A stretch of 33,541 bases of DNA. Source: Actinomycetes bacterium (lineage in GTDB: Bacteria; Actinomycetota; Actinomycetes; Prado026). The stretch's first letter is position 1. Each line of letters starts with the position of its first letter. The notes under the pieces are model-generated. The model was not told the DNA's origin. It ran no database searches and saw nothing but the letters and a program-made list of their open reading frames with translations. This document shows, in pieces, positions 13,751-27,190 of this stretch. The stretch is from assembly GCA_036510875.1 (NCBI GenBank), contig DATCDE010000174.1, positions 1 to 33,541 of the forward strand, given 5' to 3'. Made by a program: the position numbers and the translations under genes.

Positions 13751-16286
13751 TCAAGCCTGCACCTCCCGCAGCCGGTCGGGCACCGCCAGGTGGACGGCGC
13801 GCCGGGCCGCGACGTGGGCCAGCACCGCGAGCACGCCGATCGTGACGGCGAGGAGCACGGCCAGGGCACCCCAGGCCGGCGCAGCTCATGGGTGGGCCGT
13901 CCCCGGATCCGCTGAGCTGGTCCAGGGCGGGCAGCCAGACCGTGGCCGCGACCGCCGGAGCCGCCGCGCCGAGCCAGACCTGCTCCTCCACCGGGGTCAT
14001 GGTGGGGCCCCGCTCGGCGAGGGCGTACCGGAGGTCGGCCATCGCCCCCGCGCGGCCCAGTCGAGGGAGCGGGCCCTGGGCCACCGGCTGCCAGCGATCT
14101 GTGTCCCCGCTGACCCCGACCCCGAGCCGGGCCCCGGACGAGTCGCCGGCGGTGACCTGTGGGGTCCGGTCGCCGAGCACGACCGGCAGCACCGCCGGGT
14201 GGTCCGCCACCGCTGCCGCGGCGTCCAGCGTGACGTCCAGCGTCAGGGCCACGCTGAGGCCGGCACCGCTGGTCGTCACCGTGGTCCCGGTGGCGGGGGG
14301 GGTCCCGGTGCTGTCCCACACGCCGCTGCGCCACTGGACGCCCTGGCCGGTCAGGTCCACCGGGCCGCGCGCGTCCTCGGCCTGCGAGAGGGTGACCGGC
14401 CCATCCACCGGCTACCCGGCCAGCCCCCCGACGGGGGCCGCAACGTCCCGGCCAGGTGGTCGAAGCTGGTCCCGGCCCAGGCCGGGTCCCAGGCCGTGAC
14501 CGCGGCCAGCCGCGCCGTGCCGACGGCCAGCAGCCCGCCGCCCTGGGCCAAGGTGCGCAGCGCAGCCATCGCCCAGTGCCCGTCCGGGTCGACCGAGTCC
14601 ACCGCGGCGCGCAACGCGTCGGGCGACGACCCCGACACGGTGAGCACCGCGCTGGCCCCGACCTGCACGTCGGCGTTCGCGGTGCGGTGCTGGGCCGCCA
14701 GCACCCAGCCGTCCACCGTGAACACCGCGAGCCCGGCGGCGACAGCGACCAGCACGACCAGCTGCAGGCTCTTGGGACGCCGGGCGATGTTGCGCGCCGT
14801 CAGGAACGAGGGGAGGCCGGACGACGCCCGGGTGGTGCCCTCCCTCCCTCGCGCGCGCGAGGGAGGGCTCCACCCGCACCGACAGCAGCCCCAGCGCCAG
14901 CGCGAGCAGCCCGGGGGCGAGGACGGCGGCGAAGTCGGAGCTGCCCTGCCGCAGCTCGTAGAGCCCCGCCGCCGCGAGCGCGACCGCCGCGGCGTCCACC
15001 GCCACGGAGCGGGCCAGCCGGGCCCGCCGGCCGCTGGTCCGGCGCAGCTCCTCGAGCACCGGGGCCCGCAGGATGCCGCGGGCGGCCAGAGCAGCGGCCG
15101 ACCGCCCGCCGAGGAAGGACACTCCGAGGGCCAGCCACACCCCCGGAGTCATCGTCACGGCGACGCCTGGCAGCAGGTAGGCGGACACCAGGGCCGCAGC
15201 GGCCAGTCAGCCCACGACCAGCCCCAGCGGGATGGCCGCCAGCAGGAGCAGCACGGACTCACCCATCCCGAAGAGCATGGTGGCCGAGGCCCGCATGCCC
15301 CGCAGCTTGGCCAGCGCGACCTCTCCCGAGCGCTCGTCCGCGGTAGCCGACACGATGAGGAACAGCACCGCCCAGGCCAGCAGCACGAGCTGGGCGGTCA
15401 CCGCGAACGCCGCCGTCCGGACCTGGAACCGATCCGGCGCCAGCTGATCCACGGCGTCCGCGAGCGTGCTCACACGCGACAAGTGGACGGTTCGCTGCGG
15501 GTCGGAGGTCGCGGCTGCCTCGCCGACCGACGCGACGACACCGGGCAGCGCATCCACGGTGAGCCGGTCGGGCAGCAGCGGCCGCAGCGCGGCCACCTGG
15601 ACCTGTCCCTGCGAACCGAGGATCTCGTCCTGCGGCACCAGGATCTCGTCCAGCCGGTCCGGATCCCCCTCGCGAACACCGGGGGACGCCTGGGCCGGGG
15701 TCGACGGACCCCACACCGACGGTTTCGCCGTCGCGGCGTCGTACACCCCCACGACCCGTACCAGGTTGCCGTCCGGGCGGTAGATGCCCAGGTCGAGCTG
15801 GGAGCCGACCTCGAGGTGGGCGCTCTGGGCCAGCCCGGCCGAGACCATGGCCTGCTTGCCGCTCTGCGGACACTGACCTCCCAGGACGACCCTGCCGCCC
15901 TCGCACATGCCGTCGTGCCAGCCCACCGCCGCGACCCCGAGCAGGTGGCCGCCCGACGTGACCTGGCCGTCGGTCACGCCGACCCCGAGCCTCGGCCGGC
16001 CCTACCGGGGGCCGAGCCGGGGGTCGAGGGCCGCGGCCTGGGCCGCCTGCATCACCTCGGTCGGAGTGAACGGGGTCTGTCCGGCCACCTGGCCGCGGAC
16101 CAGGTAGCCCGTCGTCACCGGGCTCAGCGCGCCGAGCCGGTCCCGGATGAGCGACTCCTCGGCGCTGTGGGCGTACATCGGGGCCGCGACAGCGGCCGCG
16201 GTGGCGACGACGGCGACGAAGAGGACGGCGAGGGACGCCCAGGCCCGCCAGCGGATCCCGCGGAGGATCAGGGCCACCGCGTGCAC
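13751..16286 (-). pseudogene. FtsX-type ABC transporter permease, multiply disrupted
   Basis: Remnant of a permease of about 845 residues. GTG 16286 has GGAGGAGG eight bases upstream (16295-16302). The N-terminal membrane segment WASLAVLFVAVVATAAAVAA and a long extracytoplasmic region are still readable. Lesions in reading order: in-frame TAG at 16002-16004; in-frame TGA at 15207-15209 inside PLGLVVG*LAAAALVSAY; a frameshift at 14838-14849 in a CCCT x3 run; a frameshift near the C6 run at 14424-14429 (one missing base would fit); an in-frame TAG at 14412-14414; and a frameshift near 13885 before the last membrane segment (WGALAVLLAVTIGVLAVLA). The tail ends at TGA 13753-13751. Sequence on both sides of each lesion remains protein-like. 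Substrate unknown. Confidence 0.88.
14842..14867. repeat. 26-bp perfect palindrome inside permease pseudogene
   Basis: Thirteen-base arms with no loop; the centre is alternating C/G and the outer parts are CCCT repeats. On the plus strand the left arm belongs to a CCCT x3 run (14838-14849), which is where the permease reading frame shifts. It could form a very stable hairpin or cruciform and promote slippage. Confidence 0.85.
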
Positions 16287-25066: not shown

Positions 25067-26176
25067 TCACGGAGCGGCCCGGTAGCTCATCGCCTCCTCG
25101 ACCCGCTGCTCGGCGATGCGCTCGGCGACCCGGCGGGGCGGCTCGCCGCTTTCGGCCACGCCGTCCAGCACCAGCCGGGTGTTGGTCCGGATCTTGTCCT
25201 CGATCGTGGCGAAAGCCTGCACCGACGTGCCCCCCGCGTACTCGACAGCCGCGCAGATGACCCCGCCGGCGTTGGCCACGAAGTCGGGGACGACGACCAC
25301 GCCGCCCGCGTGCAGCCTCTCCTCGGCCTCCCGGCTGGCCGGGATGTTGGCGCCCTCCAGCACCAGCCGGGCCCGCAGGTCAGAGACGTTCTCGACCGTG
25401 AGGACGTCCGGCCGAGCCGCCGGGACCCAGATGTCGCAGGGCCAGCCGACCAGGTCCTCCGGCGCGACCGGCGACCCGCCGGCGAAGGTCGAGACCGTCT
25501 CCCCGGTCGCCTTGTGCGCGACCAGCGCCTCGATGTCGAGCCCCTCGTCGTTGGCCACCGCGCCGCGGCTGTCGGACGCCGCCACCACGACCGCCCCGCG
25601 CTGGACCAGGAACCGCGCCGCGTGCGATCCGACCGACCCGAAGCCCTGGACGACGACGCGGGCACCGGCCAGCTGCACGGCCCCTCGCTCAGCGGCCACC
25701 TCGGCGGCGATCGCCACCCCGTACCCGGTGGCCCCCAGCACGTCGAGCGGGATGCCCCCGAGGACGGCGGGCAGCCCCACGGCCCGACCGCAGGCGTCGC
25801 GCAGGTGCGCCATCAGCGGCTCGTTCAGGCCCATGTCGGGGCCGGGGATGTAGCCCACCACGTCTCGGATCGCGCGCCCGAACGCGCGGACCAGGCGCAC
25901 CTTCTCCTCGAACGGCAGCCCCGGGTCGGCGACGATCCCGGCCTTCGCGCCGCCGTGCGGCAGCCCGGCCGCGGCGTTCTTCAACGTCATGGCCCTGGCC
26001 AGCCGGGCCACCTCGACCACGCTGACGTCGGTGGCCATGCGCAGGCCACCGATCGCGGGGCCGGCCGCGAGGTTGTCCACCACGAGGTATCCCAGCAGGT
26101 GGGCGGCCGGGTCGTTCACCACGATGACCTGCTCGGGCCCGAAGCGATCTACCTCAGGCAGCTCAACCATCGCCAT
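25067..26176 (-). CDS. Glu/Leu/Phe/Val-type amino-acid dehydrogenase
   Basis: NAD(P)-dependent oxidative deamination of an amino acid, or the reverse. ATG 26176 has GAGGAGG (26182-26188) five bases upstream and gives 369 residues; a second ATG at 26170 is possible. The N-terminal domain has MTLKNAAAGLPHGGAKAGI with substrate-binding K66 and catalytic-position K78, and D114 in PGPDMGLNEP. The Rossmann domain has VVVQGFGSVGSHAARF (GxGxxG at 178-183). The length is closer to Leu/Val dehydrogenases (about 360) than to most glutamate dehydrogenases (about 410-450), but GLRMATDVSV is glutamate-dehydrogenase-like, so substrate is left open. The stop lies next to the lipoprotein remnant, and a large near-palindrome lies upstream. 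Confidence 0.88.
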   Translation of the reverse strand: MAMVELPEVDRFGPEQVIVVNDPAAHLLGYLVVDNLAAGPAIGGLRMATDVSVVEVARLARAMTLKNAAAGLPHGGAKAGIVADPGLPFEEKVRLVRAFGRAIRDVVGYIPGPDMGLNEPLMAHLRDACGRAVGLPAVLGGIPLDVLGATGYGVAIAAEVAAERGAVQLAGARVVVQGFGSVGSHAARFLVQRGAVVVAASDSRGAVANDEGLDIEALVAHKATGETVSTFAGGSPVAPEDLVGWPCDIWVPAARPDVLTVENVSDLRARLVLEGANIPASREAEERLHAGGVVVVPDFVANAGGVICAAVEYAGGTSVQAFATIEDKIRTNTRLVLDGVAESGEPPRRVAERIAEQRVEEAMSYRAAP

Positions 26177-26288
26177 GACGACCTCCTCGGAGCGTGCCGA
26201 TCTCGACGGTCAACACGTACCGCGCCGGGGGTCGTCCCGACAGGGCCGTTGGACCGAGCCGAACGTCATCCAGGCTCTCCCCCTGCCT

Positions 26289-26416
26289 GCATGAGGGTGC
26301 CCTTCTGTGCGTGCTACCGAAACAACCCACCCTTCATGGACGACGTCCACCGGCGACGCCGCCGTCCGTGAAGGGCGTACTTCTTCGAGCACACGCACAG
26401 AAGGGCACTTTCATGC
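26289..26416. repeat. 128-bp near-palindromic element
   Basis: Two 56-base arms (26289-26344 and 26361-26416) around a 16-base centre. The outer parts include a perfect 17-bp match: GTGCCCTTCTGTGCGTG at 26297-26313 and its reverse complement at 26392-26408, flanked by matching GCATGA/TCATGC ends. The inner part pairs 13 of 15 bases (26330-26344 with 26361-26375). CCCTTC and GAAGGG recur in both parts. It fills most of the gap between the SDR gene's stop and the dehydrogenase gene's start, both on the minus strand. Candidates are a miniature or palindromic repetitive element, a complex terminator, or a structured 5' leader. Confidence 0.85.
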
Positions 26417-26428
26417 GGAAAGTGGGGG

Positions 26429-27190
26429 TCAGCTGACGGTCAGCCCACCGTCCACCACGAGCGCCTGACCGGTGACGAAGGAGGAGGCGTCGCTGGCCAA
26501 GAAGACTGCGGGGCCGGCGATCTCCTCCGGCCGCGCCCAGCGCTGCATCGGCACTCGCGAGATCAGCGCCTGCCCGGCCGCGCCGTCGCCGGCGCGGGCG
26601 AACTCGGTGAGGTCGGTGGACACCCAGCCGGGCACCAGCGAGTTCACCCGGACGTTCGCGTGCGCCCACTCGACGGCGAGGGTCCGCGTCAGGGACAGTA
26701 CGGCCGCCTTCGCGGCGCCGTAGTGCGCCATGAACGGCACCGAGGCGACGCCGGCCACCGAGGCCACGTTGATGACCGACCCCGACCCCTGGGCCAGCAT
26801 GCTCGGGCCCACCGCCTGGCATACGTGCACGATCGAGTCGACGTTGAGCCGCTGGGCCTTCTCCCAGCCGGCGAACCGAAGGTTGACGAAGGGGCTCATG
26901 AAGCTGTTGCCGCCGGCGTTGTTGACCACGACGTCCAGCCGACCGAGCTCGCCCAGCGCCCGCCCCACCGCCGCCTCGACGGCCTCCCGGTCGGTCACGT
27001 CCGCGACGAGCACGACGGCGCGCCGGCCGTGGCCCTCGACCGCCGCGGCCACCTCGTTGAGCAGCTCCTCGTTGCGAGCCAGGACAGCGACGTCCGCGCC
27101 GGCTGCCGCGTAGGCCTCGGCGATCGCCCGGCCGATCCCCCGGGATGCGCCGGTCACCAGCGCGGTCTTGCCCTGCAGGTCGATGCTCAT
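26429..27190 (-). CDS. SDR-family NAD(P)-dependent oxidoreductase
   Basis: A 253-residue classical short-chain dehydrogenase, resembling FabG and related 3-oxoacyl/alcohol reductases. ATG 27190 overlaps the upstream hydrolase stop (ATGA). Cofactor motif TGASRGIG (13-20) and NNAGG (90-94) are present. The catalytic set is N116 (RLNVDS), S144 (INVASVAG), Y157 and K161 (HYGAAKAA). The C-terminal PGWVSTDL and GQALVVDGGLTVS are typical. An Arg in ARNEELL after the second strand would suit NADPH. The substrate is unknown; translational coupling to the hydrolase suggests the two act on related compounds or are needed together. Confidence 0.92.
   Translation of the reverse strand: MSIDLQGKTALVTGASRGIGRAIAEAYAAAGADVAVLARNEELLNEVAAAVEGHGRRAVVLVADVTDREAVEAAVGRALGELGRLDVVVNNAGGNSFMSPFVNLRFAGWEKAQRLNVDSIVHVCQAVGPSMLAQGSGSVINVASVAGVASVPFMAHYGAAKAAVLSLTRTLAVEWAHANVRVNSLVPGWVSTDLTEFARAGDGAAGQALISRVPMQRWARPEEIAGPAVFLASDASSFVTGQALVVDGGLTVS

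Follow-up and report, generated by a model that had tools for sequence, protein, structure and literature searches.

The long hairpin at positions 26289-26416 of the window, by which we mean the whole 33,541-nt stretch of actinomycete DNA analysed, is very likely one copy of a dispersed, non-coding family of REP/REPIN-like palindromic repeats that probably spread by insertion. The element is of an ordinary kind, and no published description of the family itself was found, judged by titles or abstracts; its members are best named untagged REP-like repeats. The family was probably once a mobile, self-copying small non-coding element. The sequence-only reading of the window had proposed a REP-like or miniature inverted repeat present elsewhere in the genome, and this proposal is borne out by tens of copies, by their arrangement as inverted doublets, by their intergenic position near gene ends and by gene pairs that are occupied in one genome and empty in a relative. 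The hairpin is not single-copy, as a search of the host genome returned 44 elements.

Structure of the window copy and its repeat unit

The near-palindrome is self-complementary at 90 of its 128 positions, and its ends match better than those of any other 126-130-bp span of the window, with 24 of the outer 30 positions matching (next best elsewhere, 21). RNA covering 26270-26436 is predicted to fold at -99 kcal/mol on the plus strand (shuffle mean -58.5; z -9.7) and at -101.8 kcal/mol on the minus strand (shuffle mean -64.1; z -8.9), and none of 200 shuffles folded as well. The sequence-only reading described the 17-bp perfect stem (GTGCCCTTCTGTGCGTG) as the outer one; while the palindrome itself holds up, this stem starts 8 bp inside the outer end, and beyond it lie a perfect 6-bp GCATGA/TCATGC pairing and two mismatched positions, which become G.U pairs in the plus-strand RNA. 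CCCTTC/GAAGGG blocks are repeated within the element, as had been stated, and the lack of coding potential agrees with the gene calls, in which no gene overlaps the element and the flanking genes are bounded at 26176 and 26429. The window copy contains two weak terminator-like patterns, and its full palindrome is without a T-tract. The features of the locus are collected in Table 1.

Table 1. Features of the window copy and its flanking genes (positions in the window)
Feature	Position	Strand	Evidence or remark
Glu/Leu/Phe/Val dehydrogenase (PF00208, PF02812), downstream gene	25067-26176	-	start 112 nt beyond element
C-tract at left border, family-wide feature	26279-26283	+	sequence
Left half-unit	26286-26337	+	family profile 46.8 bits, E 8.8e-13
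Repeat element as a whole, a near-palindromic doublet with inverted half-units	26289-26416	.	folding, symmetry, genome copies
17-bp perfect stem, left arm	26297-26313	+	
Inner stem CCCTTCATGGACG, left arm	26330-26342	+	
31-nt inter-half spacer, partly self-complementary (GGACG...CGTCC)	26338-26368	.	
Inner stem, right arm (CGTCCGTGAAGGG on +)	26363-26375	-	
Right half-unit, inverted, tail-to-tail with left	26369-26418	-	family profile 41.0 bits, E 5.7e-11
17-bp perfect stem, right arm	26392-26408	-	
G-tract at right border, counterpart of C-tract; abuts SDR stop codon	26424-26428	+	
Short-chain dehydrogenase/reductase (SDR, PF13561), upstream gene	26429-27190	-	stop codon 12 nt before element

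The repeat unit of the family is a half of about 57 nt (C-tract, GCATGAAGGGtCCCTTCTGTGCG...CACCCTTCAT) that can fold by itself. Its consensus runs, in order, through the C-tract, GCATGAAGGGtCCCTTCTGTGCG, six variable bases, CGCACAaacc and CaCCCTTCAT, and contains a head dyad (GAAGGG-CCCTTC), an inner stem (TGTGCG/CGCACA) and a tail (CCCTTCAT). A lone half can fold on its own, pairing ATGAAGGG with CCCTTCAT as the outer stem and using the same inner stem, and the sequence at the end of the element is GCATGAAGGG. The C-tract border is a real feature: across positions -6 to -2, C makes up 73-75% in the host genome (G000, 52 halves) and 62-81% in a relative from another genus (G002, 47 halves). 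Each of the 16 clusters in G000 shares the plan of the window copy, an inverted doublet joined tail to tail ('+-'). The spacer measures 8-60 nt in 15 of them, 14 of these falling within 8-33 nt, and the remaining cluster (L029) is a 69-bp short palindrome that the family matches on both strands. Some single halves are likewise short palindromes bordered by a C-tract and a G-tract (e.g. L048, L071).

The sequence-only reading had pointed to covarying stems as a check, and none emerged among the copies in G000 or G002. Halves were aligned separately for G000 (50 halves, after 15 of 65 were dropped as truncated, from G002, or belonging to L068 or L029) and for G002 (49 halves, after 22 of 71 matches were dropped, all below 35 bits), and no covariation measure stood clearly above shuffles in either set. 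For one G002 structure as a whole, 11 cells changed on both sides, a value reached by 77 of 500 shuffles; the outer helix of this model was one column off, and of it only helix 2 (the inner stem) was usable. RNAalifold returned no structure for the G000 alignment, and a mutual-information scan picked up only a neighbouring GGGT/GGTG alternation. Arms paired within an element are as dissimilar as arms taken from different elements (p 0.29).

Copies in the host genome and their placement

The host genome is a 4.05-Mb draft of an uncultured actinomycete (377 contigs, 73% G+C). Searching it with the window element gave 76 matching pieces, and the half-unit consensus gave 46 matches at E<=0.001; a profile refined on the fetched loci recovered 65 distinct halves, of which G000 accounts for 61. 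For the analysis of genomic context we counted halves of at least 20 bits in G000 and above 30 bits in G002, and on this basis the 44 elements of G000 comprise 60 halves, arranged as 16 clusters and 28 single halves. A reversed-sequence control produced no matches, and 20 contigs picked by number rather than content (181 kb) held four good halves, two of them forming one doublet, together with two short partial matches. Because several copies sit at contig ends, these copy counts are lower bounds; the repeat probably breaks draft assemblies, leading to an underestimate of copy number. Copies at contig ends, or no more than about 60 nt from them, are found at L007 and L049 in G000 and at L127, L129 and L135 in G002.

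Genes were called with a codon-usage caller trained on the same DNA. Copies are nearly all intergenic, with 3 of the 36 G002 elements scored inside a called gene. In G000, 18 elements lie in codirectional, 13 in convergent and 9 in divergent gaps, and 4 others sit at the edge of a contig or locus; the corresponding numbers in G002 are 14, 9 and 3, with 7 more at edges. The 66 classified elements of both genomes (32 codirectional, 22 convergent, 12 divergent) depart from the 34.4, 10.6 and 20.9 expected from intergenic bases (p 0.0003), the background for both genomes being G000 stretches on long contigs that also carry copies. Convergent gaps are thus over-represented and divergent gaps under-represented, relative to a background of 20,000 codirectional, 6,176 convergent and 12,164 divergent intergenic bases in 413 kb.

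Placement is tightest at gene 3' ends. Among the outer ends of G000 elements that face a gene 3' end, 27 of 31 are positioned between -10 and +29 nt relative to the stop codon, and the TGA within the element's GCATGA is itself the stop codon of 12 of the 31 facing genes (from model offsets, by hand). Gene starts are faced by 27 of 58 outer ends in G000. Among single halves in codirectional gaps, 5 of 11 in G000 and 6 of 7 in G002 turn their outer end toward the 3' end of the upstream gene, indicating no strict polarity. The flanking genes belong to mixed families. One gene that closes at the element's TGA (L059:19-894) encodes a methyladenine glycosylase domain fused to a GrpB domain, and at L077 (about 1190-1230) short tandem CAGCCCT repeats share the intergenic region with an element.

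The position of the window copy, between two genes on the same strand and upstream of the dehydrogenase, would suit the suggestion that the Glu/Leu/Phe/Val dehydrogenase mRNA has a structured leader or riboswitch here. We regard this as extremely improbable: the element lies 12 nt past the SDR stop codon versus 112 nt from the dehydrogenase start, the other copies flank unrelated genes, only 27 of 58 outer ends in G000 face a gene start, Rfam gave no match on the window and five loci, and the 295 nt available upstream of the dehydrogenase orthologue in G002 (L081) contained no detected copy. The minus-strand SDR transcript would carry the hairpin at its 3' end.

Relatives and empty sites

The family and order of the host are represented in the analysis by three genomes (G000, G001 and G002). 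G002, which belongs to another genus of the same family, harbours a homologous repeat family with its own consensus (GCATCAAGGGnCCCTTGAGGCGAATAGAtCGCC...GGCGCCCTTCAt), represented by 46 matches and 36 elements, mostly single halves and inverted doublets. Its 13 clusters comprise nine '+-', three '-+' and one '+-+'. Head-to-head fused forms with one common long dyad (TATTGGCATCAAGGGTCCCTTGATGCCAATA) occur at L114, L116 and L137 of G002, and none was seen in G000; at L145 (about 975-1005) a GGAA-type repeat run (GGAAGGAAGGAAGG) adjoins a G002 element. Neither version turned up in G001, also of the same family: genome searches gave none, nor did 166 kb of its stretches at a threshold of E 0.01, and comparing 76 of its intergenic regions with one another yielded only a few short matches and nothing like such a family.

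Orthologous gene pairs were located through their flanking proteins, and seven were comparable. At six of the seven a copy is present in one genome and none in the relative: the G002 elements L107, L139, L145 and L146 correspond to gaps in G000 or G001 without a copy, and the G000 elements L071 and L077 to gaps in G002 without a copy. The element-free gaps measure 38, 23, 69, 83, 29 and 101 nt, where the values for L139 and L145 come from G001; the G000 counterparts of these two gaps, 126 and 432 nt long, are likewise copy-free. At L071, the G000 and G002 sequences are common up to the stop codon, where the G000 copy begins. These comparisons are between different genera, so simple loss could also leave an empty gap. 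At the seventh pair (L051:1012-1070 in G000, L108:295-430 in G002) both genera have a copy, and each follows the consensus of its own genus. This double occupation has to be explained by a common target or by concerted evolution, and could be a conserved position that has undergone the latter.

Further afield, a sequence-only model of the G000 half matched G000, G002 and one genome of a distant family (G287, E 6.8e-4) among 393 genomes of the class, and one chance match of this kind among so many genomes is not unlikely. In 365 kb of G287, however, the first copy (L086:1501-1548, identical to L237:1228-1275) led to two further halves in a tail-to-tail pair (L240:15082-15128 and 15183-15230), together defining a third version, GATGARGGGnCCCYH...ACCARTAGAGCC. 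The G287 copies, three halves in all, suggest a wider superfamily. We tentatively entertain the possibility, to which we give somewhat less than even weight, of an old and fast-diverging Actinomycetes superfamily with at least three lineage versions (host genus, G002 and G287), characterised by an RGGG-n-CCCY head dyad and inverted doublets and spread without RAYT by an unrecognised enzyme. When named genomes were scanned for one pattern of the G000 type, the only contig to match was L068, in a genome (G393) that gave one match in 1.9 Mb; since L068 is 86-93% alike to G000 in places, it is possibly a stray contig in the G393 bin, and it was left out of the counts.

Probable mode of spread and comparison with known repeats

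We propose that copies inserted as a non-autonomous element, that recognition would have proceeded through sequence and through hairpins formed as single-stranded DNA, which analogy makes probable, and that copies would have survived where they lie next to stop codons and at a distance from promoters. Alternatively, the elements may be bidirectional transcription terminators, or hairpins protecting mRNA 3' ends, that were selected for that job. Such a role would suit their tight placement after stop codons, the convergent excess, the high stability of the hairpin on both strands, the terminator-like patterns of the window copy and the gene pair occupied in both genera. Against it, 12 of the 66 classified elements stand in divergent gaps, the T-tract is missing from the full palindrome, the arms do not covary and are no more similar within an element than between elements, and a relative lacks a copy at six of seven comparable gene pairs; we therefore think this origin unlikely. 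Given that sites elsewhere are empty, we argue that termination or stabilisation is not the family's reason to exist. As a by-effect, the window hairpin may nevertheless end or protect the SDR transcript and so separate SDR from the dehydrogenase unit.

More improbable again is a classical MITE, in which the palindrome would be a deletion derivative of a DNA transposon, mobilised by a DDE transposase that shares its terminal inverted repeats. Inverted ends, a size near 130-150 bp, dispersed intergenic copies and occupied and empty sites would all be expected of one, but a target-site duplication signal is missing from 25 doublets (mean longest flank repeat 5.0, versus 4.92 when shuffled; p 0.38), single halves outnumber doublets (28 versus 16), and among the Pfam families of 75 flanking proteins the 25 most frequent include no transposase, beyond which lie 113 further families. 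Spread of a REP-like repeat by insertion is the explanation that we favour. Phage and plasmid records gave no match, and viral contigs held no exact pattern; plasmid matches in five records had E values of 0.2-0.8 and were taken as chance.

Most of what is known of REP-type repeats comes from proteobacteria that have a RAYT transposase. The RAYT domain Y1_Tnp (PF01797) was detected in none of four draft genomes (G000, G001, G002, G393), in a search for which 6 of 14 controls were positive and in assemblies of a type that easily loses multi-copy transposases. No GTAG tetranucleotide is present at the ends of the G000 or G002 consensus, and a constant CGTC-type tag is absent. Without defining tags or a RAYT enzyme, the family is not filed as a GTAG REP, a CGTC REP or a REPIN/RAYT system. 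A literature search combining RAYT, 'repetitive extragenic palindromic' and 'actinobacteria' found no paper.

The resemblance to REPs is nonetheless close. Published accounts describe placement near 3' ends, inverted doublets, donation of stop codons and scarcity between divergent genes (PMC3733652; PMC3116915). In common with the GTAG-tagged, RAYT-associated REP/REPIN repeats as portrayed there, the present family consists of short palindromic intergenic units, found near 3' ends as singlets and as inverted doublets foldable into one long hairpin, in which the unit end gives stop codons (PMC3733652; PMC3116915). It differs in having a unit of about 57 nt with nested stems rather than 20-40 bp, a C-tract instead of the GTAG tag, no detected Y1_Tnp and only tens of copies. 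CGTC-tagged REPs also form inverted dimers and have no dedicated transposase known (PMC3733652); the spacers of several doublets here contain CGTC/GACG as well, but inconstantly and not in the G002 consensus, and the stems given for the published repeats are of 8-9 bp with loops of 4-5. ERIC/IRU, a 127-bp enterobacterial MITE, and YPAL share with the present element a similar total length, a long stem-loop and an intergenic location, and YPAL also has filled and empty sites (PMC2229807). ERIC is set apart by TA at its ends and by target duplications (PMC2229807); target duplications were not found here, and the host is a 73% G+C actinomycete. The family can also be likened to REP-like repeats mentioned for Mycobacterium tuberculosis and Deinococcus, which have no constant terminal tag either (PMC3733652).

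Looking forward, a well-populated untagged family, with a sister family of other consensus and no detectable Y1, makes a clean test case for the question of what mobilises repeats of this sort, and it equally suits the question of how whole-family sequence turns over between genera. On the practical side, the hairpin is explained and serves as a warning against riboswitch annotation, and the repeat may explain some of the contig breaks in these draft genomes.
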